From a virus: a DNA stretch of 37,240 nt. Below are positions 909 through 29,600 of this stretch, one piece after another. Position 1 is the first letter of the stretch. Each line of letters begins with the position of its first letter. The translations under genes and the position numbers were made by a program. The notes under the pieces are model-generated. The model had not been told where the DNA came from, made no database searches, and was given only the letters and a program-made list of their open reading frames with translations. The stretch is from positions 1-37,240 of the IMG/VR virus record IMGVR_UViG_3300042430_000602; one strand, written 5' to 3'.

Positions 909-1265
909 ATGTCTATCAAGATCTGCCGAAACTGTAAGAAAGAAAAAGATATAATTGAGTTCCCCTTTTTCTCTACGAACGATGCTGGCCGCAAAAACAC
1001 ATGCAGATCGTGTAATAACGAACTCAGTTCCTTGCGCCGAAACCTCCGCGCCCAGAACCGCCCACCTATTGCTGGGCCATGTCCCATCTGCAAAAATCAC
1101 ACAACGGTTTGGATATTAGATCATTGTCATTTTGACGATACATTTCGCGGGTATATATGCAACAGTTGTAATTTAGGCATTGGGCGATTCAATGATGATA
1201 TATCTATTCTCTATAACGCTATAGAATACCTGAACACGCAAAATAATATACAATACTATATATGA
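909..1265 (+). CDS. HNH / recombination endonuclease VII-like protein
   Basis: This 118-residue protein has two zinc-binding halves. Near the N-terminus are C6-x2-C9 and C32-x2-C35, a small ribbon often found before phage HNH domains. Residues 58-97 match the endonuclease VII family: C58-x2-C61, then LDHCH (70-74), then RGYICNSCN (80-88), then GIGRFNDD. T4 endonuclease VII resolves branched DNA, and related small HNH proteins also act as homing or nicking enzymes. At 118 residues it is shorter than T4 gp49, lacking most of that enzyme's dimerisation region, so resolvase function is not assured. It overlaps the epimerase gene by 4 bp (ATGA-type junction), so they are translationally coupled. 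Its GC content is higher than that of the genes after 2067. Confidence 0.8.
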   Translation: MSIKICRNCKKEKDIIEFPFFSTNDAGRKNTCRSCNNELSSLRRNLRAQNRPPIAGPCPICKNHTTVWILDHCHFDDTFRGYICNSCNLGIGRFNDDISILYNAIEYLNTQNNIQYYI

Positions 1266-2077
1266 GAATATTGATTACTGGTGGCAGCGGCTTTATTGGC
1301 ACCCATTTAATAAAAAAACTATCTAATGACGGACATGACATTTATAATCTGGACAAAATTAGCAGCCCCGCACTGCCGCCCGACAAACAAAAGATAATAG
1401 ATATACTAGATATCGACGTTAACGATATCTTTTTCGATAATATAGACACTATCATTCATCTAGCTGGTATGGTGAGTGTACCGAAATCATTTGAAGATCC
1501 AATAAATAGCTTTGGCAATAATACGTTCTGTACTATAAAATTATTATCAGCCGCCCACCTTCATAAGATTAAGAAATTCGTCTTCGCTTCTAGCGCAGCG
1601 GTATATGGCAGCAAAGAAGGTACGGTGAGTGAAACTGATGCCGCCGAACCTAACAGTCCATACGGATTAGATAAGTTAGCCTCCGAAAAATACATACAAA
1701 TGTATTGCCAACAATGGGGTATTGATTATTTAATATTTCGCTTCTTCAATGTGTATGGTGAAGGACAGAATCCGCAATACGCTGGAGTCATAACGGCATT
1801 TAATGTCGCCGCTCAGAAAAAAGAGCCGCTGATCGTTTATGGAGATGGTGAACAGACTAGGGATTTCGTCAGTGTTAGCGATGTGTGTAATTACGTTTCT
1901 AGATTAATAATCACTGTAGTAAAGAATGAGATATTTAATATAGGGATCGGCAAATCTATTTCTATAAACTCGCTTGCAAAACAATTCGGTAGTCATATAA
2001 TATACAAGGAAGCGAAGAAAGAAGTGCGCCACTCATGCGCCGATATCAGCAAAATAAAAAACGTCTATGAAAAATAG
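1262..2077 (+). CDS. NAD-dependent nucleotide-sugar epimerase/dehydratase, short C-terminus
   Basis: This is an extended short-chain dehydrogenase. It has the Rossmann motif GGSGFIG (residues 7-13), a SSAAVYG segment (110-116) carrying the catalytic Ser, and the active-site pair Y134-x3-K138 in PYGLDK. It also has RFFNVYG and a GDGEQTRDFVSVSDV segment typical of UDP-sugar 4-epimerases. Such enzymes interconvert or dehydrate nucleotide sugars that feed glycosyltransferases. At 271 residues it is roughly 30-50 residues shorter than usual. It ends at ADISKIKNVYEK, just where family members normally continue into the last C-terminal helices, so it may be a trimmed but active form or a decaying copy. 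It overlaps the next gene by 11 bp. Substrate specificity cannot be read from the sequence. Confidence 0.85.
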   Translation: MRILITGGSGFIGTHLIKKLSNDGHDIYNLDKISSPALPPDKQKIIDILDIDVNDIFFDNIDTIIHLAGMVSVPKSFEDPINSFGNNTFCTIKLLSAAHLHKIKKFVFASSAAVYGSKEGTVSETDAAEPNSPYGLDKLASEKYIQMYCQQWGIDYLIFRFFNVYGEGQNPQYAGVITAFNVAAQKKEPLIVYGDGEQTRDFVSVSDVCNYVSRLIITVVKNEIFNIGIGKSISINSLAKQFGSHIIYKEAKKEVRHSCADISKIKNVYEK

Positions 2078-2673: not shown

Positions 2674-4563
2674 ATGAATTATTATTTCACTTATTCAGAT
2701 AAAAATTATACACACATTGCCGAAAGACTATTTAAGACTTTACAAGAGTACTCTTCTTATAAAATCATTTATTATACAATAAATTTTGATTACGAAAATA
2801 AATTTGATAATGTAATTCCTATTAGATACGATTTTGATCATACTCGTTTTTTGCCGTATGACTTAAACGATGATGAAATGCAACATTGGACAAAAAAATA
2901 CATGTTGTATTTGAAAGCTAATTTATGTCTAGAGATTTTAAATACGAAAGAGAACAATAATTATTGTTGCATAGATTCTGACATGATGCTTATCAAGAAT
3001 GCGGATTTTCTATTTAACAAGATTAACGATAATATAAATCATCCTATTTTGCCGTTAAATTGTTATGAATATATGTTAATGGATGGTCATGGTAATCCAT
3101 ATGACGAAAATAATAATTTAAATGTAAATAAATGTTTAGAAGCTGATTTGATGAGGTTTCTAAATGTTTCGATACAAAAACGTGATAGCTTTTATAAACA
3201 ATGTAATTTATTACTTTTTAATAAAAATAGCTTGGATCTTTTTAAGGAGTGGTATAATATTTGTTATCGCCCAGAAATAATAAAAAATAAATACTTGGCG
3301 GCAATGAATGAAGAAAGCGTCTTAAATTGTTTGTTGTGGAAATACGATTATAATGCTAATTTTGATCACATACATATTAATATACCATTAGACGAAGTAA
3401 ATACATTGGTTTCCGCATTTAATAACCCTTCCGATAACTCTTTCTTTCTTAAAGATTTTTGTAGAATACCAGAGAAGCAAAAAATTCAAAATATTATCTT
3501 TTTGCATGGACGCCCGAATCCAACCAATTATAAAATCCTAGAAACAGAAATTATTTACAAAAATAAACAGAACAATCCTATTAATATTTACTCGTCTGAT
3601 CGAAAGATATTATTAATAATTAACGCTGTTGGTATGGGCGATGCTTTAACAAGTACGCCAGCCATAAAAAAACTGTCTAACATTTATTCTTCAAAAATAT
3701 CTATCATTTCTAATCACTACGACTTATTCAAAAATAATCCATACATAGAAAATAATTTTAAATTGAACGAAACAGTAGATAAGTCTCAATACGAAGTTTT
3801 TAGTATTTTTGAACGACACTCAACTCATAAATTAAACGAAACAGAATCTTTAAGAAAACATCATGCGTGTTGCACAGAAAGAAGTTGTGCATATGATTTA
3901 GGTTTTGATTTAACGAGCGATGAGTTACAATTAGATTTTTTTCCAACAAATAATTGCATTTATGAAATTAAAAATTTTGGTAATTATATATGTTTGCACA
4001 CTACATCTAATTGGGAAAATAGAACGTGGAGCCAAGAAAATTGGCAAAAACTTTCCGACAATATATCTCACCTAGGTTTCAATGTGGTAGTTATTGGAAA
4101 AGATCATGAAGAAGTTAACTTTGATAAATCTATTTGTTATAAAAAATGTTTTGTACCGTTGGGGCAAAACGTAATAGACATAAGCAATGATGGCAGTTCT
4201 ATAAATGATCTTTGGCATATTATTAATAATGCAAAAGCTATTGTTACTTTAGATTCTGGACCATTGCATTTAGCTGGAACGACAGATACTTGGATTGTTC
4301 AAATAGGTTCCGCAAGACATCCAGAATTTAACACTCCTTATAGAAAAGGCTCTCAAAAATATAAACATATATTTGTTAACGGTGAATGTTCTTTGTTTTG
4401 CGCTAGTAATCTTAAATATTCTGTTAGAGAATGGAACAGTATAAATGCTGTTCATTATTTACCAAGATGTCAAGAAAACTACGAAACGATGCGTTGTCAA
4501 CCAAATTCAGACGAAGTATTAAAACAAATAAAATCAATAATAAATGAAAATTTTAATAGTTAA
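2674..4563 (+). CDS. Two-domain glycosyltransferase: GT-A domain plus GT9 (heptosyltransferase-like)
   Basis: Residues 1 to about 290 form a GT-A-type domain with a metal-binding DSD at 101-103 (CIDSDMMLI) and conserved aromatic and acidic residues after it. Residues about 310-600 are a GT9 domain. It opens with LLIINAVGMGDALTSTPAI, has TWSQENWQKL (451-460) and VVVIGKD, and then LDSGPLHLAG (526-535), the nucleotide-sugar-binding signature of heptosyltransferases of the WaaC/WaaF group. A cysteine-containing tail follows. The protein probably adds two sugars in succession, in the cytoplasm. It overlaps the start of the next gene by 20 bp, suggesting coupled translation. Donor and acceptor cannot be predicted. 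Confidence 0.8.
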   Translation: MNYYFTYSDKNYTHIAERLFKTLQEYSSYKIIYYTINFDYENKFDNVIPIRYDFDHTRFLPYDLNDDEMQHWTKKYMLYLKANLCLEILNTKENNNYCCIDSDMMLIKNADFLFNKINDNINHPILPLNCYEYMLMDGHGNPYDENNNLNVNKCLEADLMRFLNVSIQKRDSFYKQCNLLLFNKNSLDLFKEWYNICYRPEIIKNKYLAAMNEESVLNCLLWKYDYNANFDHIHINIPLDEVNTLVSAFNNPSDNSFFLKDFCRIPEKQKIQNIIFLHGRPNPTNYKILETEIIYKNKQNNPINIYSSDRKILLIINAVGMGDALTSTPAIKKLSNIYSSKISIISNHYDLFKNNPYIENNFKLNETVDKSQYEVFSIFERHSTHKLNETESLRKHHACCTERSCAYDLGFDLTSDELQLDFFPTNNCIYEIKNFGNYICLHTTSNWENRTWSQENWQKLSDNISHLGFNVVVIGKDHEEVNFDKSICYKKCFVPLGQNVIDISNDGSSINDLWHIINNAKAIVTLDSGPLHLAGTTDTWIVQIGSARHPEFNTPYRKGSQKYKHIFVNGECSLFCASNLKYSVREWNSINAVHYLPRCQENYETMRCQPNSDEVLKQIKSIINENFNS

Positions 4564-7500
4564 TCCACATCTATCTACAGGTGGTTGTCCTGAATATTTA
4601 TATCAGTTCATATTAAATAATAAAAATAAATACGAGGCCATAAAAGTAATTGAGTTTTCCAATTTCTCTAATGACTATGTAATTCAAAAAAACAAAATTA
4701 AAAATTTAATCGGTGAAGAAAATGTTATTTGTTTAGGCGACTTTTGGGAAGATGACTTCACATTTCAATTTAAAAAATTTAAATTATTAAATATTATTCA
4801 AGAATACAATCCTGATGTTGTTTGGTTTAATGAGTTTCCTGAATGTTTTGAATATAAATCACCTCCAGAAGAATTAATAAAAAAAATTTATAGCCCGAAT
4901 AGAGCTTATAAAATAATAGAAACAACACACAATAACAGTTTTGATTTTGATAAAAAGATATTTATCCCAGATGAATTTATGTTTTGTTCTGAATTGCATT
5001 TAGAAAAATCAAAAAATATTAACATCATAAAATCTATTTGGGAAGTGCCTATTTCAAATAATGTAAGACCAAATAGAGAAAATACTTTAGAACTTCTTGG
5101 TCTAGATCCAAGCTATCTGCATGTTTTAAACGTGGGAATTTTTAATCAAAATAAAAATCAAAAATATATTTTCGATTTAGCGGAAAAATTAAAATACTAT
5201 AAAATACAATTTCATTTTATTGGTAATTCATGTTTTTTAAATGAATGTGACATACCTCAAGACCAATTGTTATTGCATAATTGCAAAGTTTGGGGAGAGA
5301 GGTCTGATGTGGATTTGTTTATGTCATGCATGGATATGTTTTTATTTCCATCTAATAAAGAATTGAATCCATTAAGTGTAAAAGAAGCGCTGTCTTGGAA
5401 TATGGAGGTCGTATGCAAAAAATGTACAAATTATACAGATAAATATTTAGAAAAAAATAATTTTTATTTGATAGACGATATAAATACATCTGAATTTATT
5501 TTGCAAAAATTAAAAAATTTAAATACAAAGCCGTTAAACGAAAATAATGAAATAAAATTCGCTTTGTACACTTCTTTTTATAATAGCGCTAAATATGTGA
5601 ACGCTATTTTTGATAACATTTTAAATTTAAAATATAATAATTTTACATGGTTTATAACTGATGATTTTAGCGCTGACAACACTAAAGATTTAATATTAGA
5701 TAAATTAAAAACCTTAAAAACAGATAAAATAAAATATGTTGAACAGCAGTTTAAAAAACAAATGTATTGGCAACCAAATGCTTTTATGGATAAAAGTTTT
5801 GAATATATTGTTGCGATAGATGCTGACGATTTTTTTGATTTGAATTTTTTATGTATATATAACAAATTTTTATCTAATGATAAATCAATATGTCTCATGA
5901 CTTGTGATTTCAAAAAAATAGAAGAATCAAATGGAAACTTACATTCATTAGGTTTATTGAATAATAATGAAGTTTTAAAATCAAAAATAAATAAATTTCA
6001 TCCGTCTGTTGATTATTTAAATAATTTAAATTATTATTCCCTTGGGTATTTAAGATGTTTTAAAAACATTAAAGATTTAGAATTTTTAATTAAAGATTTC
6101 AACGCGTGTGCAAATGATTCTTATCATATAATGTATGTAAATTCATATGGTAAGTGGTTACACATACCAAGAAATTTATACACATGGATGTACAGGCCAG
6201 ATTCGGAATCTCATTCTCCGATCTCAAAAGGTTTTAATAATAATTTTGATATAGCTTATAAAAAACTAATAAATTCAGAATCATTAGTAGACACTACATT
6301 TATTTCATTATATAAAGAAACTTGCGCTTTAAATTATCTTGATTTAAACTTCAATGAAAGCGTGTCTATTTTCACTAAAAATCAAAACGCTAAATTATTA
6401 AACGATTTGTTTTTTGATAAAAATTTAACAATAAATAATAATTTTTTTCATGATGTGTATGTGATCGTGCTTAACTATTACGACACAAGCGAAATAAAAA
6501 ATATAATTTCAAGTCTTAAAAATAAAAATGCTCGTATAATTTTTTACAAACTTTATGACGATAAATACATTTCTAACGAAGAGAGAGATACTAACGTCTC
6601 AAATGGGATGAATGATTTAAAAAATAATTTATCTTCATTTGTTAATATTAATAATTGGTTTTCTTATATTAGGCATTTTTATATTGTCGGAAATGTAAAT
6701 AAAAATATTAATTTAGATTCTCAAGAAATAAATATTTGTAATGAATCTGGAAGTTTGGGAGATGCTATAGCTTGGGTTCCAATTGTAAATGAATTCGCAT
6801 TGCAAAAAAGAAAAAAAGTAAATTATTATACTCCACATAAAGAATTATTTATTAATGAATATCCCATGATTAATTTTTATGATTATTGTGAAAAACCTTC
6901 TGATGATGAGAAAGGCGTTTATAAAATAGGTTGTTTTAATGAAAGCGATTGGAAACCCTACTCTTTACAAGAAGTTGCTAGTAATATTTTAGGAATTAAA
7001 CATGAAGAAAAAAAATGCAAATTAAATTTTGATAAAACAAAAAAATCTAATTTTAATAAAAAATACGTTTGTATAGCGACTCAATCTACCGCCCAGTGCA
7101 AATACTGGAACAATAAAGAAGGATGGACTAAAGTTGTAAGCTATTTAAATTCACTTGGTTACGATGTGGTATGCATCGATAAGCATTATGGTTATGGGGC
7201 GAAAGACGTAATGAATATTATTCCTAAAAATGTTATAGATAAAACTGGAGATTTGCCGCTGGAAGACAGGATAAATGATTTATATCATTGTGAATTTTTT
7301 ATAGGTTTAGGATCTGGCTTGTCATGGTTAGCATGGGCTTGCGAAAAATCTGTCGTAATGATTTCTGGGTTTTCAGACCCTAAGTCTGAATTTTACACAC
7401 CATATCGAGTTCATAATAAAAACGTTTGTAACAGTTGTTGGAGCGATGTGAATTGTACGTTCGATAGATCAAATTGGCTTTGGTGTCCTAGAGATAAAGA

Positions 7501-8248
7501 TTTCGAATGTTCTCGCGAAATTACATTTGATATGGTAAAAGAAAAAATAGATAAATGCATTTTAGATTTAGAAAATAAAAATAATGATTTTGAATGGTTA
7601 AAAATTGATGATTCTTTTGAGGATTCGGTTAAGAAAGAAATTTTTGAAAACAAAATATATGAAAAAGTTAACGAAGTATCTGAAGGGGATATCGTTGTTG
7701 ATTTAGGAGCTAGTGTTGGTCCGTTTGTGATGAGTGTTTTAAATAAAAATCCTAAACACGTTTATGCTGTAGAGTCATCACTTGAAATGTTTTCAACATT
7801 AAAAAGTAATATGAAAAACTATAAAAACGTAACATGTTTGAACTACGCAATAGATAATAATGGTGCGGATTTTTGTGAAAATGATTTCAGTTACATTTTC
7901 CATGATAAGTCATACGAATGCAAAGCTATTACTTTCAAAACCCTTTTAAACAAATTAAATATAAATAAAATAGATTTTCTAAAAATAGATATAGAAGGCA
8001 GTGAATATGGTTTATTTAGCGAGGACTGTTTAAACATTTTGAAATCAAATGTAAAATTTTTAGTTGCTGAATTTCATTTGGGTAATAATGATTTTAAAAA
8101 TAAATTTCGTGATTTTAGAGATACCGCTATTAATAAATTTAAAAATTATAGTATTTATTCATTAGATGGCGCAGATATAAAATGGGATCTTTATAATGAT
8201 CATTTTTTACAATATTATACTGAAGTAATTATACATATTGAATTATAA
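4544..8248 (+). CDS. Four-domain glycan enzyme: GT4 + GT2 + autotransporter-type O-heptosyltransferase + FkbM methyltransferase
   Basis: This 1234-residue protein reads as four enzymes in series. Residues 1 to about 310 are GT4-like (NPHLSTGGCPEYLY, then LNVGIFNQNKNQKYIF, then LFPSNKELNPLSVKEALSW). Residues about 337-600 are GT2-like (ALYTSFYNSAKYV, ITDDFSADNT, and AIDADDFFD carrying the DxD). Residues about 726-1010 resemble the Aah/TibC autotransporter O-heptosyltransferases. They have SGSLGDAIAWVP, GLGSGLSWLAWA, SGFSDPKSEFYTPYRV and a cysteine finger C962-x2-C965, C981 and C989 in the CNSCW...WLWCPR...FEC pattern that binds iron in TibC. Residues about 1030-1234 are an FkbM methyltransferase (VVDLGASVGPFVMSVL, FLKIDIEGSEYGLF). 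Very AT-rich. It follows the GT-A/GT9 gene with overlap. Targets could be host glycans or phage fibres. Confidence 0.8.
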   Translation: MKILIVNPHLSTGGCPEYLYQFILNNKNKYEAIKVIEFSNFSNDYVIQKNKIKNLIGEENVICLGDFWEDDFTFQFKKFKLLNIIQEYNPDVVWFNEFPECFEYKSPPEELIKKIYSPNRAYKIIETTHNNSFDFDKKIFIPDEFMFCSELHLEKSKNINIIKSIWEVPISNNVRPNRENTLELLGLDPSYLHVLNVGIFNQNKNQKYIFDLAEKLKYYKIQFHFIGNSCFLNECDIPQDQLLLHNCKVWGERSDVDLFMSCMDMFLFPSNKELNPLSVKEALSWNMEVVCKKCTNYTDKYLEKNNFYLIDDINTSEFILQKLKNLNTKPLNENNEIKFALYTSFYNSAKYVNAIFDNILNLKYNNFTWFITDDFSADNTKDLILDKLKTLKTDKIKYVEQQFKKQMYWQPNAFMDKSFEYIVAIDADDFFDLNFLCIYNKFLSNDKSICLMTCDFKKIEESNGNLHSLGLLNNNEVLKSKINKFHPSVDYLNNLNYYSLGYLRCFKNIKDLEFLIKDFNACANDSYHIMYVNSYGKWLHIPRNLYTWMYRPDSESHSPISKGFNNNFDIAYKKLINSESLVDTTFISLYKETCALNYLDLNFNESVSIFTKNQNAKLLNDLFFDKNLTINNNFFHDVYVIVLNYYDTSEIKNIISSLKNKNARIIFYKLYDDKYISNEERDTNVSNGMNDLKNNLSSFVNINNWFSYIRHFYIVGNVNKNINLDSQEINICNESGSLGDAIAWVPIVNEFALQKRKKVNYYTPHKELFINEYPMINFYDYCEKPSDDEKGVYKIGCFNESDWKPYSLQEVASNILGIKHEEKKCKLNFDKTKKSNFNKKYVCIATQSTAQCKYWNNKEGWTKVVSYLNSLGYDVVCIDKHYGYGAKDVMNIIPKNVIDKTGDLPLEDRINDLYHCEFFIGLGSGLSWLAWACEKSVVMISGFSDPKSEFYTPYRVHNKNVCNSCWSDVNCTFDRSNWLWCPRDKDFECSREITFDMVKEKIDKCILDLENKNNDFEWLKIDDSFEDSVKKEIFENKIYEKVNEVSEGDIVVDLGASVGPFVMSVLNKNPKHVYAVESSLEMFSTLKSNMKNYKNVTCLNYAIDNNGADFCENDFSYIFHDKSYECKAITFKTLLNKLNINKIDFLKIDIEGSEYGLFSEDCLNILKSNVKFLVAEFHLGNNDFKNKFRDFRDTAINKFKNYSIYSLDGADIKWDLYNDHFLQYYTEVIIHIEL

Positions 8249-8250
8249 AA

Positions 8251-8628
8251 ATGATAACTTTATTAGTAGATGAAGCGTACGCATTTGATTATCTTAGTAT
8301 CTTAGAGGTTAAAAAACAAAAATCTTCTATATCTAATAATGCTTGGATCAAATGTTATGTGTATTTACAAAATCAATTTGATAACGAAAAATGGTCGCAC
8401 ATGATGCATTCAAAAGAATACGAAAGTATGATTAAAGCTAATGAATTAACATTTGATGCGGTTAATAAAGCTAAAAATAATGAAGTAACCGCACAACACG
8501 TTGATTATTGTAATTATCAAAGACATATGGCAAAACAAAATTTTCAAAAGAAATTTTTTACATCTGACTTATCTGAGTTAAAGATAGGTTACGAAAAATA
8601 TATTCATAATAATCACACTGATGTTTAA
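8251..8628 (+). CDS. Small protein of unknown function (125 aa)
   Basis: The frame opens MITLLVDEAYAFDYLSILEVKK and starts two bases after the preceding stop, so it is probably co-translated with the large glycan enzyme. It is rich in Lys, Asn, Tyr and Gln and looks mostly alpha-helical, with no signal peptide or membrane segment. No domain is recognised. Its last 71 bp overlap, in the opposite direction, the end of the minus-strand glycosyltransferase gene. It could be a small accessory or regulatory subunit of the cassette, but nothing in the sequence shows this. Confidence 0.65.
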   Translation: MITLLVDEAYAFDYLSILEVKKQKSSISNNAWIKCYVYLQNQFDNEKWSHMMHSKEYESMIKANELTFDAVNKAKNNEVTAQHVDYCNYQRHMAKQNFQKKFFTSDLSELKIGYEKYIHNNHTDV

Positions 8629-9622
8629 TTGTAAATCTTGAGTTAGCGTTTTTATAACAATTTTCAGGATTGATAAGTTTATCTATGTTTTGAGTGGCGT
8701 AAATCATATCATTAGTAGTAGAACATCTTAATCCTGTATCTCCTTGTAATACCGTTTCGGTAAAGCCGCCGAAATTTGTTGTAATAGTGGGCGTTCCTGA
8801 AAATTGAGCTTCAATAACTGTCCAATTGCATGGCTCCATAAACAACGAAGGAGCAAATAAAAATTTCGCATCGCTTAGTAAATTCATTCGTTCAATAGGA
8901 CCAACGAATCCTGCAAATTTACAATGTTTAGTCTCTTTAAGATTCAGTATGTTTGGCCCTGCAAATATAATATCTTGTCCGACATGATTGCAGATATCAT
9001 AAGCAAGCTGTGCGCCTTTTTCTTCTATAATCCTGCCTAAAAATAATGCTGTATTTGATTTTTCTTTTTTGTATATGAAGTCGTCAGGATCAAAGCCGGG
9101 ATAAACAATATGTTCGCATCCTAATTCAACATGTGTTTTAGAATGACCATGCATTTTATGCATTTGACTATATGTTTCAAATATCTTAATTGGCGCGAAC
9201 ATGCTATCATAACCTATGCTTGGTTCTACTACTATAGTTTTATCATAAAAGTGTTTAACACATGGTTCATGCGCGAACCCAAACCAGCATAATATAAATT
9301 CATTACTTGATTTTATTCTTTTTTTTAACTCTGTAACACAATTGTCATTAAACGCATTAACCGCTTTTGTATTAACGTTTTGATCAAAACCTTTGATCTT
9401 CCAATCATTTAAGTTGCCATAGCTATTAATTAATATATCATTATTAGTAACATTAATATGTTCTGTGCAATTAACAATAGAGTTTTCATGACCATAATGA
9501 TAAACAGTATGACCCCTTTTAGTCATTTCGTCGCAAAACTTATAAACCTTTTGCACAAAAGCACATAATGAAACATCTTTTCTAGTAGGCGAGTAAGGAA
9601 CGCTCAAACAGTGAAAAACCAT
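8558..9622 (-). CDS. GT4-family glycosyltransferase
   Basis: This 354-residue leftward gene has the usual GT4 layout. The N-terminal Rossmann-like half opens with HCLSVPYSPTRKD. The C-terminal donor-binding half includes NTALFLGRIIEEKGAQLAYD, DIIFAGPNIL, SDAKFLFAPSLFMEPC, NWTVIEAQFSGTPTITTNFGG and ETVLQGDTG. The acidic residues around FMEPCNWTVIE correspond to the family's E-x7-E site. It is the only clear minus-strand gene in the body of the window and its 3' end overlaps the plus-strand gene before it by 71 bp. It starts 27 bp from the divergent PhoH gene. The orientation suggests it was acquired separately from the rest of the glycan cassette. Confidence 0.85.
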   Translation of the reverse strand: MVFHCLSVPYSPTRKDVSLCAFVQKVYKFCDEMTKRGHTVYHYGHENSIVNCTEHINVTNNDILINSYGNLNDWKIKGFDQNVNTKAVNAFNDNCVTELKKRIKSSNEFILCWFGFAHEPCVKHFYDKTIVVEPSIGYDSMFAPIKIFETYSQMHKMHGHSKTHVELGCEHIVYPGFDPDDFIYKKEKSNTALFLGRIIEEKGAQLAYDICNHVGQDIIFAGPNILNLKETKHCKFAGFVGPIERMNLLSDAKFLFAPSLFMEPCNWTVIEAQFSGTPTITTNFGGFTETVLQGDTGLRCSTTNDMIYATQNIDKLINPENCYKNANSRFTIKHQCDYYEYIFRNLSLTQISQM

Positions 9623-9649: not shown

Positions 9650-10399
9650 ATGTCAATCAAAAAGAAAAAAATTCAAAAAGAAAAACACGATCTGAACGAC
9701 ATTATCTCAAATAATAGTTTTAAATCGACTAAATTAACAATTAAGAATTTTAATTTAACGGATAAGCAAAAAAGTTTTACTCAAATAGCTTTTGATAAAA
9801 ATACTAAAATTGTTTTTATTAATGGACCTGCCGGAAGTTCTAAAACATTTTTGGCTGTTTATTGTGCATTGCATATGTTAAATATGAATTCAAAGTACGA
9901 GATCAAATACATTAGAACAATCGTCGAGTCTGGAGAAAGAGGCTTAGGTTCTTTGCCTGGAACTGTAGATGAAAAGTTTAATCCTTTTATGATACCACTG
10001 TATGATAAGTTGGATGAACTTATTCCCATGTCTCAATCAAAATATCTTGAAACTAGTGGTATTATAGAGGCTTTGCCTGTGAACTTCTTAAGAGGTGCTA
10101 CATGGAACGAGAAGATCATTATTGCAGACGAATCTCAGAACTATAGCAGCAAGGAGTTGATTACTCTTCTCACTCGTATTGGCGAGAATACTAAAATGTT
10201 TATCTGCGGAGACGCTATGCAATCAGACATCGGAAACAAATCTGGTTTTATGAAAATTTATGATTTGTTTAATAATAAAGACAGCGAAGAAAGAGGTATT
10301 TATTGTTTTGAATTCAATGAAGAAGATATCATGCGTAGTGAAATTCTTAAATACATCGTTCATTCTCTTAAGAGATTAGATAAAACAAACATTCATTGA
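9650..10399 (+). CDS. phoH: PhoH-like ATPase
   Basis: This 249-residue protein has a P-loop NTPase core. It has Walker A GPAGSSKT at residues 59-66, Walker B IIIADESQN at about 157-164, and the ERGLGSLPGTVDEKFNPF segment characteristic of PhoH proteins. The ending includes FNEEDIMRSEILKYIV. A lysine-rich N-terminal extension of about 40 residues precedes it. PhoH proteins are frequent in marine and freshwater phages. Their role is unsettled, with suggestions ranging from RNA metabolism to phosphate-stress-related functions. It opens a rightward series of genes leading into packaging, and the next gene starts 10 bp after its stop. Confidence 0.92.
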   Translation: MSIKKKKIQKEKHDLNDIISNNSFKSTKLTIKNFNLTDKQKSFTQIAFDKNTKIVFINGPAGSSKTFLAVYCALHMLNMNSKYEIKYIRTIVESGERGLGSLPGTVDEKFNPFMIPLYDKLDELIPMSQSKYLETSGIIEALPVNFLRGATWNEKIIIADESQNYSSKELITLLTRIGENTKMFICGDAMQSDIGNKSGFMKIYDLFNNKDSEERGIYCFEFNEEDIMRSEILKYIVHSLKRLDKTNIH

Positions 10400-10409: not shown

Positions 10410-10814
10410 ATGAGTAATATTTACTGTTCAAGTTGCGGAACAAAACATGCCCAAGGCTCTAAATTCTGTACTAACTGTGGGGTTTCTTTGGGAGGATTTG
10501 CAAACATCAGTAAACCGACTTTACAAAATTCACTACAATCGAGATCTACCTCTCGCAAACAAAATACAGAAGTCGATGAAGATGGTATTCCCACTGTATT
10601 CGTTAGACCATCGAAGCTTTCATACGAAATAGAAAAACCAGCAGGTAATAAATATTTAGGAAAAGATTTATTTAACGCTCCCCCAGTCGATCCAAGTGAA
10701 AGAATTAATTCAAGACCGAATTCCAATTATAGAAAACTAAGTAAAGAAGAATTTTTAAGTCAGTCGTTGAAGGAGTGTAGTTCGCGCCCAATACAAGACA
10801 TAGATGAATCGTAA
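10410..10814 (+). CDS. Zinc-ribbon protein, otherwise unknown
   Basis: The first 27 residues form a zinc ribbon: YCSSCG (C6-x2-C9) and FCTNCG thirteen residues later. The remaining roughly 105 residues are polar, Ser/Arg/Lys-rich and probably disordered (for example FVRPSKLSYEIEKP). Zinc ribbons of this type mediate nucleic-acid or protein contacts. The gene lies between phoH and the sigma-like gene and overlaps the latter by 11 bp, so a role in phage transcription is plausible but is inferred from position only. Confidence 0.75.
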   Translation: MSNIYCSSCGTKHAQGSKFCTNCGVSLGGFANISKPTLQNSLQSRSTSRKQNTEVDEDGIPTVFVRPSKLSYEIEKPAGNKYLGKDLFNAPPVDPSERINSRPNSNYRKLSKEEFLSQSLKECSSRPIQDIDES

Positions 10815-11517
10815 AAAGAAAAATTTTGAAGACATGTATGAGATTATTAACCAAGTAATCAAAAAGCGCAGAAATAAATGGAAGTTAAAAGCGATTACTT
10901 GGTTTGATTTTGAAGATATAGAGCAAGTCATCAAACTTCATATATATAAAAAATGGCATCTGTGGGATCAATCGCGAGCGATTGAACCTTGGGTGAATCG
11001 TATAGTCACGAATCAAATTAGAAATATAATAAGAAATAATTATACAAGTTTTGCGCGTCCTTGTTTATCTTGTCCATTTAATCAAAATAAAGAAGGTGAT
11101 TCTGGAATAGAAATGTCATGTGGTTTTACAACCAGCGGCAAACAATGTAATGAATGCCCATTATACGCTAAGTGGGAGAAAGTAAAAAAATCCGCTTACG
11201 ATGTCAAGATGACTGTAAGCTTAGAGAATCATAAAAATTATTTTATGAATTGTGAATCAAGTATAAGTTACGATTATAAAAATGCTGAAAGTAAACTTCA
11301 CGGTTTAATGAAAAGCAATTTAGGAGATAAGCATTTCTTTATTTATAAAATGTTTTTTATAGACAATCTTAGCGATGATCAAGTAGCCCAAGTTTTAAAG
11401 TTTAAAACAAGCGAAAAAGGAAGAAAAGCTGGTTACAAACAAATAAAAAATTTAAAAAAAATGTTGTATGTGAAAGCTCAATTGTTATTAAAAGAAAACG
11501 ATATATTCTCATCTTAA
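10804..11517 (+). CDS. RNA polymerase sigma factor-like protein with cysteine-rich insert
   Basis: Residues about 30-80 resemble sigma region 2 of small phage and ECF-type factors: FDFEDIEQVIKLHIYKKWHL, then IEPWVNRIVTNQIRNIIRN. Residues about 180-230 resemble region 4 (FIYKMFFIDNLSDDQVAQVL, then GYKQIKNLKKML). Between them is a cysteine-rich loop, C87-x2-C90, C106 and C115-x2-C118, which probably binds a metal. This layout is consistent with a phage-encoded late sigma factor in the manner of T4 gp55. It lies directly before the packaging and head genes, and candidate promoter-like elements recur before those genes. The region 2 match is by pattern only. Confidence 0.7.
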   Translation: MNRKKKNFEDMYEIINQVIKKRRNKWKLKAITWFDFEDIEQVIKLHIYKKWHLWDQSRAIEPWVNRIVTNQIRNIIRNNYTSFARPCLSCPFNQNKEGDSGIEMSCGFTTSGKQCNECPLYAKWEKVKKSAYDVKMTVSLENHKNYFMNCESSISYDYKNAESKLHGLMKSNLGDKHFFIYKMFFIDNLSDDQVAQVLKFKTSEKGRKAGYKQIKNLKKMLYVKAQLLLKENDIFSS

Positions 11518-22072: not shown

Positions 22073-23626
22073 ATGTCAAATATAGATGTCAACGTTTCCT
22101 CTAATAATAATCAAATAAATGTAACTGTTGGAGGCGGATCTAATTCTACTGTTGTTGAAAGTAGTAATAAGAATACTATTTTAGTAGAGTCAGTTGCGCC
22201 AGCAGGATCAACTAGTAATATTGTTGAAAGAGGACCGGCTGGCACTTCAGGAACTAGCGGTTCATCTGGAACGTCTGGAACATCAGGTAGTAGTGGAACG
22301 AGTGGAACGTCAGGTAGTTCAGGAACATCAGGCACTTCAGGAAGCTCAGGAACCAGTGGAACAAGCGGTTCTTCTGGTACAAGTGGAAGTTCAGGCATTA
22401 ACGGTACTTCTGGATCTTCTGGCGTAAATGGAACTTCAGGATCTAGCGGAACATCAGGCACTTCAGGAAGCTCAGGAACCAGTGGAACAAGCGGTTCTTC
22501 TGGCACAAGTGGAAGTTCAGGCATTAACGGTACTTCTGGATCTTCTGGCGTAAATGGAACTTCAGGATCTAGCGGAATAAATGGAACTTCAGGATCTAGT
22601 GGAACATCAGGCATTTCGGGAAGTTCAGGAACCAGTGGAACAAGCGGTTCTTCTGGCACAAGTGGAAGTTCAGGCATTAACGGTACTTCTGGATCTTCTG
22701 GCGTAAATGGAACTTCAGGATCTAGCGGAACATCAGGCACTTCAGGAAGCTCAGGAACCAGTGGAACAAGCGGTTCTTCTGGTACAAGTGGAAGTTCAGG
22801 CATTAACGGTACTTCTGGATCTTCTGGCGTAAATGGAACTTCAGGATCTAGCGGAACATCAGGCACTTCAGGAAGCTCAGGAACCAGTGGAACAAGCGGT
22901 TCTTCTGGCACAAGTGGAAGTTCAGGCATTAACGGTACTTCTGGATCTTCTGGCGTAAATGGAACTTCAGGATCTAGCGGAATAAATGGAACTTCAGGAT
23001 CTAGTGGAACATCAGGCACTTCGGGAAGTTCAGGAACCAGTGGAACAAGCGGTTCTTCTGGCACAAGTGGAAGTTCAGGCATTAACGGTACTTCTGGATC
23101 TTCTGGCGTAAATGGAACTTCAGGATCTAGCGGAACATCAGGTACTTCAGGATCTAGTGGAACGTCAGGTACTTCAGGAAGTTCAGGAACCAGCGGAACA
23201 AGCGGTTCAAGTGGAACATCAGGATCTACTGGGACTTCAGGTTCGTCTGGCACAAGTGGTATGGGTAGTTCATATTCATTATATGAAACTTATACTCAAG
23301 TATCACATGGATTTATATTAGGAGACGTTGTTAGATTTGATGCGGGAACATGGTATAAAGCATTGGCAGATTCGGCGCAAAATGCAGAGGTATTTGGTAT
23401 AGTTCAATTAGTAAATGGTGATTCTTTTGATATTGTATTTGAAGGGAAAGTTACTGGTTTAAGTGGTTTGACAATTGGTGTCGTTTATTTTCTATCTCCA
23501 ACGGTACTTGGAGCAATAACTGTAACTGAACCATCTACTATTACTCAGATATCAAAACCAATATTAATAGCCACATCATCTACTACTGGAAATATACTAA
23601 GATACAGAGGTATAATAATTAGTTAA
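22073..23626 (+). CDS. Collagen-like fibre protein
   Basis: Residues 1-53 are an Asn/Ser/Val-rich N-terminal segment. Residues 54-395 are 114 uninterrupted Gly-X-Y triplets, mostly GTS and GSS with periodic GIN and GVN and almost no proline. The C-terminal approximately 120 residues form a compact domain with FILGDVVRFDAGTWYKA, EVFGIVQLVNGDSFDIVFEG and VTGLSGLTIGVVYFLSPTV. This resembles the beta domain ending many phage fibres. Collagen-like phage fibres are trimeric rods, with the C-terminal domain setting trimer register or contacting the receptor. A giant fibre-like gene follows after 56 bp. Confidence 0.85.
   Translation: MSNIDVNVSSNNNQINVTVGGGSNSTVVESSNKNTILVESVAPAGSTSNIVERGPAGTSGTSGSSGTSGTSGSSGTSGTSGSSGTSGTSGSSGTSGTSGSSGTSGSSGINGTSGSSGVNGTSGSSGTSGTSGSSGTSGTSGSSGTSGSSGINGTSGSSGVNGTSGSSGINGTSGSSGTSGISGSSGTSGTSGSSGTSGSSGINGTSGSSGVNGTSGSSGTSGTSGSSGTSGTSGSSGTSGSSGINGTSGSSGVNGTSGSSGTSGTSGSSGTSGTSGSSGTSGSSGINGTSGSSGVNGTSGSSGINGTSGSSGTSGTSGSSGTSGTSGSSGTSGSSGINGTSGSSGVNGTSGSSGTSGTSGSSGTSGTSGSSGTSGTSGSSGTSGSTGTSGSSGTSGMGSSYSLYETYTQVSHGFILGDVVRFDAGTWYKALADSAQNAEVFGIVQLVNGDSFDIVFEGKVTGLSGLTIGVVYFLSPTVLGAITVTEPSTITQISKPILIATSSTTGNILRYRGIIIS
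22232..23257 (+). repeat. Gly-X-Y coding array with 126/153-bp blocks
   Basis: The 114 triplets are built of near-identical DNA blocks. The marker GCATTAACGG recurs at 22395, 22521, 22674, 22800, 22926 and 23079, giving spacings of 126, 153, 126, 126 and 153 bp. The pattern repeats every 405 bp, indicating segmental duplication of a three-block unit. Confidence 0.85.
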
Positions 23627-23682: not shown

Positions 23683-26600
23683 ATGAGCAGCTATACAGCA
23701 TTCCAAGTAAGAAATGGCACATCTGGTACAAGTGGTTCTTCAGGCGTTAATGGAACGTCAGGCTTTGCTGGCACAAGTGGGACAAGCGGAAGCAGCGGTA
23801 CAAGCGGTTCAAGCGGTTCTAGTGGAACAAGCGGTTCTAGTGGAACAAGCGGTTCTAGCGGAACAAGTGGTTCTTCAGGTATTGATGGTACTAGCGGCTC
23901 TTCTGGCACAAGTGGTTCGTCTGGTACAAGTGGTTCGTCTGGTACAAGTGGTTCGTCTGGTACAAGCGGTTCGTCTGGTACAAGTGGTTCTTCTGGCACA
24001 TCTGGAACAAGCGGTTCGTCTGGCACAAGCGGTTCTTCTGGCACATCTGGAACAAGTGGCTCTTCTGGAACATCTGGGACGAGTGGTTCTTCTGGAACAT
24101 CTGGCACAAGCGGTTCTTCTGGGACGTCTGGAACAAGTGGTTCTTCTGGCACAAGCGGTTCTTCTGGCACATCTGGGACAAGTGGTTCTTCTGGTACAAG
24201 CGGTTCTTCTGGAACATCTGGCACAAGCGGTTCTTCTGGGACATCTGGAACAAGTGGTTCTTCTGGAACAAGTGGGACGAGTGGTTCGTCTGGCACAAGC
24301 GGTTCTTCTGGCACATCTGGGACAAGTGGTTCTTCTGGCACAAGCGGTTCTTCTGGGACATCTGGAACAAGTGGTTCTTCTGGAACAAGTGGGACGAGTG
24401 GTTCGTCTGGCACAAGCGGTTCTTCTGGCACATCTGGGACAAGTGGTTCTTCTGGTACAAGCGGTTCTTCTGGAACATCTGGCACAAGCGGTTCTTCTGG
24501 GACATCTGGAACAAGTGGTTCTTCTGGAACAAGTGGGACGAGTGGTTCTTCTGGAACAAGTGGAACGAGTGGTTCGTCTGGTACAAGCGGTTCTTCTGGT
24601 ACATCTGGGACGAGTGGTTCGTCTGGCACAAGCGGTTCGTCTGGAACAAGCGCCAACGCTTCAGGCACAACAAATACAATAGCCAAATTTACTTCTGCAT
24701 CAGCGCTTGGAGATAGTAATACTACAGATGTTGTACATAGTTTGTCTATTAATAGTGTTATTGTTGGAAGAGGTACTGGTAATGTTGCTAGTAATACTGC
24801 TGTTGGAAATACTGCATTAAATGCAAATACGACAGGTGTTAATAATACCGCTGTTGGTTATTATTCATTAGCAAATAATACAATTGGTAATTTTAATAAT
24901 GCATTCGGCAGCTATGCTTTATATAGCAATACTACAGGTAGTAGAAATAACGCTTTTGGTTATAGATCATTGAGATCTAATACAATAGGTATTGATAATA
25001 ATGCATTTGGTTATTATGCTTTAAGAGCTAATACTACTGGTAATTATAACGTAGCTATAGGTAATAGATCTTTGAGATTCAATACGTTTGGTTATAGTAA
25101 TACTGCGGTTGGTAAAGATACTTTATATAGCAACACTACTGGTAAGAATAACAGTGCATTTGGTCACAATTCATTGCTTTATAATACGATTGGTGCTTCA
25201 AATAGTGCATTTGGTTATAGTGCATTAAACAATAATACCACAAACAATAATAGTGCATTTGGTTTTCAAGCATTAAAAGCAAATACAACAGGTTTTAGAA
25301 ATAACGCATTTGGTTATAATGCTTTGAGAAATAATACAAGTGGTGCTTATAATACAGCATTTGGTTATAGATCATTATTCAGTAATGTACTTGGTAGTCA
25401 CAATGTTGCTATTGGTTCTGATGCTTTATATTCTAATACCACAAATTATAATGTTGCTATAGGCACTAACGCTTTATCAAGTAATACTATTGGCACATAC
25501 AATGTTGCTGTAGGATTTTATTCATTACTATCAAATACAACTGGTAGTTCTAATAATGCATTTGGATTTTATTCACTAAGAAACAATACAATCGGTGCTA
25601 ATAATAGTGCATTTGGTTACGCTTCTTTAAGATTTAATACAACTGGTAACTATAATAGTGCATTTGGTTTTGAATCTTTAAAGACAAATACAATAGGAAC
25701 AGCAAATATAGCTATTGGTTATTCTTCTTTATTTTCTAACACAACTGGTATAAATAACACATCAGTTGGTGCTAATTCTTTATATTCCAACACAATTGGT
25801 ACAAATAATACTGCTGTTGGTTATGGTTCTTTACAAAATAACATTACAAGCGGTAACAACGCATTTGGTTACAAAGCATTATTTGCAAATACAACAGGTT
25901 ATAGAAATGCAGCATTTGGTTTTGCCGCTTTACAAAATAACACAATAGGCACAAACAATGCTGCTTTTGGTTATCAAACATTACAAACTAATACTACTGG
26001 TAGCAATAATACTGCTGTTGGATTAAATAGTTTATTTTCAAATACAATAGGGGCAAGAAATAGCGCATTTGGTTCTCAGGCTTTATTTGCTAATACAACA
26101 GGTGTAGACAATAGTGCATTTGGTTATGTAGCTTTAAACTCTAATACAACTGGTACTCAAAATACTGCTGTTGGTGCATATGCTTTAGCTAATAATACTG
26201 TAGGTATATCTAATACAGCCGTTGGCAGAAGTTCATTACAAATTAATACATTAGGAGTTTCAAATAGCGCATTCGGTCATTATTCTTTACTTTATAATAC
26301 TACTGGAGCAAATAATAGCGCATTTGGTGATGCCGCTTTACAAACTAATACAATTGGCGTAAATAGTACAGCTATGGGTAGAAGCGCATTAAAAAATAGC
26401 ACAGCAAGTAATAATAATGCATTTGGCGCTTATGCTCTTTTAAATAATACAACTGGTACTAACAACAGTGCTTTTGGATTGAATTCAATGAGATTCAATA
26501 CAATCGGATTAAATAATACTGCATTTGGTGGAGTTTCTTTATACTCAAATACTACTGGTAATTATAATGTCGCAGTTGGTGTTAGCGCTTTAGTAAATAA

Positions 26601-29600
26601 TACAATAGGTTCTAATAATACAGCAGTAGGATATACAGCTTTACAAAATAACACTACAAATAACAATACCGCAGTTGGTTATGCAGCTTTAGCAGCTAAC
26701 ACAACAGGAGCTTCAAATGTTGCTGTAGGTTTAGACTCATTAGCAAATAATACAATCGCTTCTAACAATACCGCTGTAGGATTTAGATCATTATTTACTA
26801 ATACTACAGGCGCAAATAATACCGCTGTTGGTAATCAGGCTTTACGTTTAAATGTTATTGGATCAAGTAATGCGGCATTTGGAATATACGCTTTATACAA
26901 CAATACCACAAACAATAACAACGCATTTGGTTATAAAGCATTATTAAATAATACAACTGGCACAGGAAACACTGCTATAGGAAATGGTTCTTTACAGAAC
27001 AATACAATTGGCAATTACAATAGCGCATTTGGTGAAACTGCATTAAGATACAATACTACCGGCGTTAAAAATACAGCCGTAGGTGTTAATGCTTTGTTTA
27101 ATAATACAATTGGTGCCAACAATGTTTCTGTTGGTTTCCAATCAATGTTCTATAATACAACTGGAGGAAATAATAGCGCTTTTGGATATAGAGCTTTATT
27201 TGTTAATACGATTGGTAGTTTTAATAGTGCATTTGGTTATAAGTCACTTTATAATAATACAACTGGTATTAGTAACAGTGGATTTGGTTTTTATAGTTTA
27301 TTCAGTAATACCACAGGTATAAATAATTCTGCATTCGGTTTATACGCTTTGAGAGGTAATACAGTTGGTTCTAGTAATACCGCTGTGGGTAGAGACGCAT
27401 TGCGATTAACCACTAGTGGTAGTAATAATACTGCGGTGGGTTACCATGCTTTAAGAAATAATACAATTGGTCAACAAAATTCCGCATTTGGCATATACAC
27501 TTTAAGAGAAAATACATCAGGTGCCGCAAACGTCGCATTTGGTAATTATTCTTTGAGATCTAATAGCATTGGTGCTGCTAATACTGCTGTAGGTTATCAA
27601 TCATTATTTAGTAATGTAAGTGGTTCTAATAATAGTGCATTTGGTTATACATCTTTATATGCTAACACAATTGGTGTGGAAAATACCGCAATAGGAAGAT
27701 CATCACTTCGTAATAATACAACAGGCGGTTATAACACTGCGGTTGGAAGAGGGTCTTTATTTACAAATATTGTTGGTTCTGCTAATGTTGCTGTAGGCGT
27801 AAATGCGTTATTTTATGCCGTTGGTAATAATAATACCGCTGTAGGCACAAACGCATTATTTAATAACACAGCAAACAGTAATAGTGCTTTTGGCTATACA
27901 TCTTTATTTGCAAATACAACAGGCGCTAGTAATAGTGCATTTGGTATGCAAGCGTTGCGATATAATACTATAGGTAATAGCAATTCCGCATTTGGTGTTT
28001 ATAGTTTATATTATAATACTACAGGTAGTAATAATACAGCTGTTGGTAGACAAACATTATACTCTAATACGACTGGCGTTAATAACAGTGCAATTGGTGC
28101 GTATGCTTTAAGTCAAAATACAATAGGTTCAGCTAATACTGCTGTAGGTTATCAATCTGGTAACTCAAATACAACTGGTGAAAGAAATTCTTATTTTGGT
28201 TACCAAGCATGTAATGTTGGTAACGCAAGTGATACAGTTGGTATAGGTTGGAGATCATTGTATAGTAATACTGCAAATTATATAGTAGCCGTTGGTCGTA
28301 GTGCATTGGAAAGCAACAAAACAGGTGCTAGTAACGTAGCTGTTGGTTATCAAGCATTAATATTAAATACAAGTGGATCATCAAATGTTGCAATGGGTAC
28401 GCAAGCATTGTATACAAATCTCATAGGCAATAACAATACAGCAATTGGGCATCTAGCTTTGTACGCTAACACTACAAATAATAATAGCGCTTTCGGATAT
28501 AAAGCATTATTTGCTAATACAACTGGTACAAACAATGTAGCTGTTGGTTTAAGCTCGTTATCGGCTAATACAATTGGCGTAAGTAATACTGCATTTGGTA
28601 CATACGCTTTACTGAGCAATACATCTGGTATTTACAATATTGCAATTGGTACTAATAGTTTAAGAACAAGCACATTTGGTTATAGCAATATTGCAATAGG
28701 ATTAAACGCTTTGTATTACAATACAACTGGTGGATCAAATATAGCAATTGGTCAACAATCGCTTGTATTAAATAGCACTGGTCAAAAAAATATAGCAATT
28801 GGTTATCAAAGTTTACATTCCGTTACTAGTGCTAGTAATAACGTTAGTGTAGGTTATCAATCATTATATAATAATACGACTGATAATAATACTGCGGTGG
28901 GTCATAATGCTTTATATTCTAATACAATTGGTACTGCTAATACCGCTACTGGTTTAGGTACTTTACAAAGCAATACTACAGGTAGTAATAATAGTGCGTT
29001 TGGTATGCAAGCATTAAGATACAATACTACAGGTAGTGGAAATACATCGGTTGGTAGAGCTGCTTTATTTAGTAATACGATTGGTACAAATAATACCACT
29101 GTTGGTCATAACGCTTTGTATTATAATACTACAGGAGTAAATAATAGTGCCTTTGGTAGATATGCTTTAATAAATAATATTACAGGTGCATCTAATGTTG
29201 CTGTTGGTGTAAATGCTTTATTATCTAATACAGGCGGTGTTAATAATACTGCTGTAGGTCAACAAGCACTTAATTCTAATACAACTGGTGGTAAAAATAC
29301 TGCTGTAGGTTTACAATCATTATATGTAAATACAGTAGGAAGTAATAATAGCGCTTTCGGTAATTATGCTTTATATACCAATACCACAAACAATAATACC
29401 GCTTTCGGTTATAGCGCTTTAAGATATAATACAATTGGCGTAAACAACGTTGCTGTTGGTATGCAAGCTTTATTGTATAATACCACAGGTAATGGAAACA
29501 CAGCAGTTGGATTGAATAGTTTGCTTAGTAATACTATAGGTAAAAATAATACCGCTGTTGGTCAACAAGCATTAACTAATAATACCACGGGTATAGCAAA

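Follow-up and report, generated by a model that had tools for sequence, protein, structure and literature searches.

A recombining phage gene cassette built around a TibC-type glycosyltransferase domain, and its probable role in glycosylation of Ser/Thr-rich collagen-like fibres

Why a phage should encode a 1234-aa protein in which three glycosyltransferase domains and a methyltransferase are joined, and which molecule such a protein would modify, are the questions raised by IMG/VR record IMGVR_UViG_3300042430_000602. The DNA analysed (positions 1 to 37,240 of the record, 37,240 nt) is referred to below as the window; all genes are on the + strand unless stated otherwise. The initial annotation, made from the sequence alone, had proposed an assembly line that builds a short, methyl-capped glycan in fixed order.

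The fusion gene (4544-8248) is a single open frame without internal stops. Its product consists of a GT4 domain (residues 1-330, 4544-5533; PF00534, E 8.5e-9), a GT2 module (residues 331-690, 5534-6613; PF00535, E 2.6e-10), a TibC/Aah-type O-heptosyltransferase domain (residues 716-1010, 6689-7573) and an FkbM methyltransferase domain (residues 1011-1234, 7574-8248; PF05050, E 1.1e-8). Matches above the Pfam gathering cut-off are Glycos_transf_1 (residues 189-313), Glycos_transf_2 (344-470), Glyco_transf_9 (816-966) and FkbM (1069-1193); the search of each segment, set beforehand as a test of the four domains originally named, thus failed for none. The FkbM domain passes the cut-offs of both Pfam (35.9 bits vs 22.7) and NCBIfam (TIGR01444, 53.1 bits vs 37.7); a methyl-capped glycan is likely. 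According to the AlphaFold model and Foldseek, the GT2 module comprises a GT-A fold and a small alpha/beta region immediately before the TibC-type domain. The preceding gene (2674-4563) does fuse two further transferases, as had been suggested. Its 629-aa product contains a GT-A-fold domain (residues ~1-300) with a DxD motif at D101/D103 and a GT9 domain (~331-619; PF01075). The N-terminal part was modelled by AlphaFold with a pLDDT of 82, and its best PDB matches are blood-group/alpha-1,3-galactosyltransferases and glycogenin.

The 1234-aa frame was recovered at 100% nucleotide identity, with no stops between the domains, in two other metagenome assemblies (L001/L088 and L002/L085). Related fused genes encoding 1003-1891 aa were found in dozens of contigs, and every domain compared among them is under purifying selection (dN/dS 0.08-0.34). 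An assembly artefact was rejected on the basis of the identical assemblies and this selection. No PHROGs family matches the fusion along its full length, in keeping with the earlier remark that it is unusual in a phage; within its own lineage, however, such fusions are the norm, and one is also carried by the cultured Microcystis phage Mel-JY01.

The domain first described as heptosyltransferase-like is specifically of the TibC/Aah type, that of protein O-heptosyltransferases. Residues 719-1004 match TIGR04414 with 300.6 bits against a curated NCBIfam equivalog cut-off of 200, whereas the LPS heptosyltransferase I profile gives the same domain only 24 bits. TibC (PDB 4rap) matches the 1234-aa protein at E 6e-64, and in the structure comparison the TibC crystal structure ranks first. 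The catalytic Asp110 of TibC and its donor-site residues Thr226, Lys230, Arg286 and Trp305 correspond to D740, T849, K853, R909 and W928 in the window, and the four-cysteine iron finger is present (C962, C965, C981 and C989); the roles of these residues in TibC are taken from PMC4358343. The catalytic Asp and the sugar-binding Thr and Trp do not vary across 76 distinct TibC-type segments from phages; position 230 is K or R, and the iron finger is present in all 76. The adenine-contacting Arg286 is kept in 48 and lost in 28. The hydrophobic beta-hairpin thumb tip is absent, TibC F265/V266 being D888/V889 in the window; the commonest residues at the first of these positions in phage segments are E, G, K, D, N and S. 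The TibC F265D mutant is an inactive dimer (PMC4358343). The N-terminal beta-barrel (TibC residues 1-97) is likewise absent, as the match begins at profile position 75 and the model has no barrel; the barrel region is covered in stand-alone phage homologues and in the Mel-JY01 fusion. Thumb tip and barrel are both TibC features needed for the dodecamer and for activity, and their absence from the window counts against the reading proposed below.

Synthesis of ADP-heptose by the phage itself was rejected because gmhA was found in 0 of the 38 records searched; ADP-heptose would therefore have to be supplied by the host, or the donor differs. Ordinary E. coli makes ADP-heptose. A heptose-1-phosphate adenylyltransferase-like gene exceeds the cut-off in one contig (G036), and a few cassettes contain a weak nucleotidyltransferase match. 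The 'cytidylyltransferase like' gene of Mel-JY01 has no NCBIfam match.

Conserved genes frame the locus, and the cassette between them recombines. On the left lie an endonuclease VII-like gene (909-1265; PF02945), with 94-97% amino acid identity to close relatives, and a gene for an NAD-dependent sugar-nucleotide epimerase/dehydratase of the SDR type (1262-2077; PF01370, E 7.5e-56), the final conserved gene on that side. Nucleotide identity falls beyond ~2043-2074 in L007, L005 and L010, which marks the left edge of the cassette. A small methyltransferase gene (2067-2672; Methyltransf_24, PF13578, E 3e-17) is variable and occurs in some cassettes only. Nucleotide comparison with relatives places the right edge at 8243-8251 or at 8594, around a 125-aa ORF of unassigned function (8251-8628) that is kept in many relatives. 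The right flank consists of a convergent GT4 glycosyltransferase gene (8558-9622, - strand; PF00534, E 4e-14; phrog_3408, E 1e-63) and a PhoH-like gene (9650-10399; PF02562, E 4e-48). In close relatives the flanks are 95-98% identical in nucleotide sequence, while the cassette between them is replaced. Single domains are also exchanged: in L007 an island of 91% nucleotide identity covers the TibC-type domain only, the rest of the gene being unrelated. At the protein level this domain is 93% identical and the GT4, GT2 and FkbM domains are 30-47% identical.

The 29 complete cassettes of the lineage show 13 domain orders, with the families fused variously or encoded as separate genes, and the TibC-type domain is present in all 29. 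The order of the fusion therefore does not encode the order of reaction, and the fixed-order assembly line was rejected.

Candidate acceptors are encoded downstream. A 517-aa collagen-like tail protein (22073-23626; PF01391) contains 114 Gly-X-Y triplets in runs, in which X and Y are ~86% Ser/Thr. After a Ser/Thr collagen-like region, the adjacent 3820-aa giant fibre (23683-35145) repeats the 23-24-aa motif NTTGxxNxAFGxxAL at least 109 times. Ser/Thr collagen genes, mostly with an S/T fraction of 0.84-0.98, occupy a comparable downstream position in almost all long contigs of the lineage.

The association was examined in viral contigs of 40 kb or more that had been selected solely by the Ser/Thr collagen pattern, in which TIGR04414 matches over the cut-off were scored. 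Such matches occur in 16 of the 31 Ser/Thr-collagen contigs among the matches listed, or in 16 of 32 when the TIGR04414-negative contig L324 is counted, which is a Ser/Thr-collagen contig by its sequence and was excluded from the control set. None was found in the controls, namely 25 contigs with Pro-type collagen and 24 random contigs. The difference (16/32 vs 0/49) has a p of about 1e-8 with controls that are not habitat-matched, and the association may partly reflect common habitat or gene exchange between aquatic phages. The TibC-type domains of the Ser/Thr-collagen contigs vary widely, with a median pairwise identity of 37%. Of 17 contigs with both genes, 11 have a Ser/Thr collagen gene within 10 kb of the TibC-type gene (5.2 expected; P about 0.002). 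GT4 by itself is not enriched in TibC-negative Ser/Thr-collagen contigs. About half of the Ser/Thr-collagen contigs are without a TibC-type domain, and many of these are fragments.

Taken as sequence evidence, this argues strongly for a putative glycosylation cassette, with the 1234-aa protein as the core of an exchangeable, phage-encoded system. It is probable that the cassette is a modular, recombining, TibC-derived one for O-glycosylation of virion proteins, with methyl capping, and that it acts on Ser/Thr collagen-like fibres. Glycosylation would start with the TibC-type domain, which would take heptose or a related sugar from an ADP-sugar and attach it to Ser/Thr hydroxyls in the proline-poor Gly-(S/T)-(S/T) regions of the phage's own collagen-like fibres (22073-23626 and, at its N-terminus, 23683-35145). 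This sugar would be extended by the fused GT4 and GT2 and by the neighbouring GT-A/GT9 protein, and FkbM would O-methylate it. Recombination between the conserved flanking genes exchanges whole cassettes and single domains and would so place different glycans on related phages. Such a coat may benefit the phage by fibre stability, by shielding against proteases or antiphage systems, or by altered recognition. The TibC/Aah identity of the GT9 domain, the recombining cassette and the probable Ser/Thr-rich collagen-like acceptor go beyond the initial annotation. A wider proposal is advanced tentatively, as somewhat doubtful: that diverse aquatic phages recruited a TibC-type iron-finger enzyme into domain-shuffling fusions with other glycosyltransferases and methyltransferases, and that dense glycosylation replaces proline/hydroxyproline in stabilising the triple helix of their proline-poor fibres, giving exchangeable coats that differ from phage to phage.

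Alteration of the host surface polysaccharide (O-antigen or capsule), blocking superinfection or changing receptors, is unlikely. Glycosyltransferases of phage variable islands are interpreted as host-modifying in PMC7029224 and PMC10202952, and GT4, GT2, GT9 and SDR enzymes are also typical of polysaccharide clusters. However, only the TibC type, a family of protein O-glycosyltransferases far from the LPS heptosyltransferase I profile, is universal to the complete cassettes, and it tracks Ser/Thr and not Pro-type collagen genes. As annotated, the cassette genes show no flippase, polymerase or membrane-bound Gtr. Glycosylation of another virion protein, such as the NTTG-repeat solenoid, the tail tube or the capsid, is rather unlikely. 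The Thr-rich repeats of the 3820-aa fibre recall the beta-helix repeats that are known TibC substrates (PMC4358343), and mycobacteriophage capsids and tail tubes are glycosylated according to work cited in PMC12619734. The NTTG repeat, however, was found in 1 of 20 relatives searched, and among the records checked in the window and G005 only, so that it was rejected as the general substrate; Ser/Thr collagen, by contrast, is found throughout the lineage and also in unrelated TibC-positive phages. Glycosylation of phage DNA as hypermodified bases, as a defence against restriction, is very improbable. It has a precedent in Pyle et al. 2024, as cited in PMC12619734, but TibC-family acceptors are proteins, and hydroxymethylated bases are supplied by genes of the thymidylate-synthase family. 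No sampled lineage record has such a gene, not even a 127-kb contig, and of the 29 records searched only 4 do; many of the records are fragments. That the fusions are decaying or chance products without special function, as differences in fusion state and domain order among relatives might suggest, is already largely refuted by the selection on each domain compared, the intact frames in dozens of contigs, and the invariant active-site and iron-finger residues.

Glycosylation of the collagen-like fibres would give a concrete acceptor to glycosyltransferases that the sources, as far as available, mostly interpret as modifying host O-antigen or phage DNA. If correct, TibC-type protein O-glycosylation reaches from bacterial autotransporters to phage fibres, and the stabilisation of almost proline-free collagen-like fibres might be explained. 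The locus would be a domain-swapping, glycan-diversifying one, with a layout like that of O-antigen gene clusters, which are likewise framed by conserved flanks. A literature search, mostly outside subscription journals, revealed no paper in which TibC-type enzymes are linked with phages or with collagen-like fibres.

The closest known enzymes are the bacterial BAHT (TibC/Aah, TIGR04414; PDB 4rap, 4rb4), of which E. coli TibC is a heptosyltransferase acting on a surface protein. Identity is ~40% over the catalytic domain, and the catalytic Asp, donor-site residues and iron finger are common to both; the window domain differs by its missing barrel and thumb tip. In bacterial genomes BAHT genes are single-domain and unfused (93 of 93), unlike the window version, and often directly adjoin a repeat-rich autotransporter-like gene; the autotransporter barrel PF03797 was found in 0 of the 29 phage records checked. 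To our knowledge, mycobacteriophage glycosylation involves neither collagen-like fibres nor a TibC-type fused modular cassette. Mycobacteriophage glycosyltransferases likewise modify the phage's own structural proteins, but at capsid and tail-tube C-termini (Freeman et al. 2023, as cited in PMC12619734 and PMC10568470). Chlorovirus PBCV-1 also encodes multidomain proteins, A064R and A111/114R; in A064R two glycosyltransferases and a methyltransferase build and methyl-cap a virion-protein glycan (available parts of PMC9614988 and PMC7826918), and the window fusion similarly unites several glycosyltransferase domains with a methyltransferase. PBCV-1 differs as an algal virus with capsid N-glycans and other enzyme families, and as described there it has no TibC-type domain or domain-shuffling cassette. 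The variable host-recognition islands of pelagimyophages and cyanophages, also aquatic, encode glycosyltransferases close to genes for fibres, some with collagen repeats, but the enzymes are mostly GT8 and interpreted as modifying the host O-chain, and neither a TibC-type core nor domain shuffling is part of the available description (PMC7029224). In Mimivirus, L230 modifies the virus's own collagen-like proteins, as is proposed for the window; it acts by lysine hydroxylation and glucosylation according to PMC9614988, whereas the window fibres have very little proline and offer Ser/Thr as candidate sites.

The gene at 4544-8248 (plus strand) of this 37-kb fragment is a single open frame of 1234 aa, in which GT4, GT2, GT9 and FkbM domains each exceed the curated Pfam cut-off. 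The sequence recurs with 100% nucleotide identity in two further metagenome assemblies. The ORF before it (2674-4563, plus strand, 629 aa) is likewise fused, joining a GT-A-fold domain to GT9. The fusion of four enzymes in one frame, and of two transferases in the preceding gene, as described in the initial annotation, is therefore confirmed.

Residues 719-1004 match the NCBIfam model TIGR04414 (autotransporter O-heptosyltransferases Aah/TibC) with 300.6 bits against a cut-off of 200; the LPS heptosyltransferase I model scored only 24 bits on the GT9 part of the fusion. The best sequence and fold matches of this domain are TibC crystal structures. TibC requires D110, T226, K230, R286, W305 and the iron-finger cysteines (PMC4358343), and alignment places D740, T849, K853, R909 and W928 at the former and C962, C965, C981 and C989 at all four of the latter. 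Across 76 distinct phage segments no substitution occurs at the Asp, Thr, Trp and four Cys positions; the position of the adenine-contacting Arg286 is altered in 28 of them, possibly reflecting different donor sugars. Because the hydrophobic thumb tip, which closes the TibC dodecamer ring, and the TibC N-terminal beta-barrel are both absent from the window domain, it is called TibC-derived here and not assigned to the BAHT family. The barrel region is retained in stand-alone phage homologues and in the fusion of the cultured Microcystis phage Mel-JY01. Several cassettes (relatives L106, L126, L130 and others) encode a second, shorter TibC-type paralogue after the first.

Relatives were retrieved with the fusion, the convergent GT4 gene (8558-9622, minus strand) and the PhoH-like gene (9650-10399, plus strand) as queries, and share endonuclease VII, SDR (1262-2077, plus strand), convergent GT4 and PhoH genes. 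The closest three (L005, L007, L010) are 95-98% identical in DNA until 2043-2074 and again from 8243-8594, the intervening genes being replaced. Among 29 complete cassettes, all with a TibC-type domain, 13 domain orders occur, and the same families appear either as separate genes or joined within a single protein that can reach 1891 aa. This variability argues against the fixed-order assembly line proposed initially. In L007, a tract of 91% nucleotide identity corresponds to window 6728-7569, nearly exactly the TibC-type domain; the GT2 part of the same gene is 32% identical to its window counterpart, and the GT4 and FkbM homologues of the cassette 30-47%. Such an island inside an otherwise diverged cassette amounts to domain-level shuffling. 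All domains compared are under purifying selection. In some relatives (L087, L090, L129; G009, G010, G011) a short gene resembling a nucleotidyltransferase, with a weak match to rfaE_dom_II, lies upstream of the convergent GT4 gene, between it and the cassette. Some (L084, L087, L106, L108) have an additional gene for an FkbM methyltransferase, inserted about 2.2 kb downstream from PhoH. A sigma-70 region 2-like ORF, with a match below cut-off, occupies 10804-11517, with a zinc-ribbon gene on one side and the terminase region on the other; it may encode a sigma factor for late transcription.

Both collagen-like proteins of the window (517 aa, 22073-23626; 3820 aa, 23683-35145; plus strand) carry Gly-(S/T)-(S/T) repeats nearly free of proline. 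A Ser/Thr-rich collagen-like gene is present in nearly all lineage contigs long enough to reach the region, and several contigs terminate within it. After its Ser/Thr collagen-like start the 3820-aa fibre runs on in a near-regular series of at least 109 repeats of 23-24 aa (NTTGxxNxAFGxxAL); a shorter NTTG-repeat fibre in the relative G005 is open for 1533 aa at the contig end.

Outside the lineage, IMG/VR was scanned for DNA encoding Gly-Thr-Ser/Gly-Ser-Ser repeats, a pattern independent of glycosyltransferases. TIGR04414 exceeded its cut-off in 16 of the 31 listed Ser/Thr-collagen contigs of at least 40 kb, in none of 25 Pro-type collagen contigs, and in none of 11 and then 13 further random contigs. 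L324, removed from the controls, is itself a Ser/Thr-collagen contig and lacks the domain; totals are thus 16/32 against 0/49 controls matched for size, not habitat (Fisher test on 16/31 vs 0/49, p 1.1e-8). The domain is missing from half of the Ser/Thr-collagen contigs; tblastn detected such a domain in only 4 of 50,697 phage records. The domains of the Ser/Thr set are diverse (median identity 37%). In 11 of 17 contigs no more than 10 kb separates the domain from a Ser/Thr collagen gene, a proximity assessed under a simple uniform-position model. GT4 alone was not enriched in Ser/Thr contigs without the domain (2/14 vs 4/36). Two short contigs from bacterial bins (L517, L595), phage-like in appearance, pair a TibC-type gene with an adjacent Ser/Thr collagen gene. 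In Synechococcus phage DSL-LC02 (L164, 1709-8153), FkbM and glycosyltransferase genes are flanked by a Gly-Thr-Gln/Gly-Thr-Thr collagen-like gene and tail-fibre genes, and one of the enclosed genes weakly matches radical-SAM models; a TibC-type domain was not reported there. All 93 TibC-type ORFs compared in bacterial genomes are unfused, and many adjoin a long Ser-Gly-Gly-Thr repeat gene, by appearance an autotransporter passenger; no autotransporter barrel was found in 29 phage records.

The Ser/Thr-rich collagen-like fibre is the probable acceptor. To judge from the families of the enzymes, the gene association and the composition of the fibre, the TibC-type domain would most likely add the first sugar to its Ser/Thr residues, the GT4, GT2, GT-A and GT9 domains would lengthen the glycan, and FkbM would methylate it. 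Since gmhA was not found in the 38 records searched, the donor would be host-supplied ADP-heptose or a related ADP-sugar. The sugars could stand in for proline or hydroxyproline and stabilise the triple helix; alternatively, glycosylation could shield or diversify the fibre.

A search of literature that included few subscription journals turned up no paper describing phage TibC-type enzymes or a tie between them and Ser/Thr collagen-like fibres. Variable glycosyltransferase islands of aquatic phages have been interpreted as modifying the host O-chain (PMC7029224). Among phages, mycobacteriophages are known to have glycosylated virions (cited in PMC12619734). The closest functional analogue of the fusion is chlorovirus A064R, a single viral protein with two glycosyltransferases and a methyltransferase that caps a virion glycan (PMC9614988).
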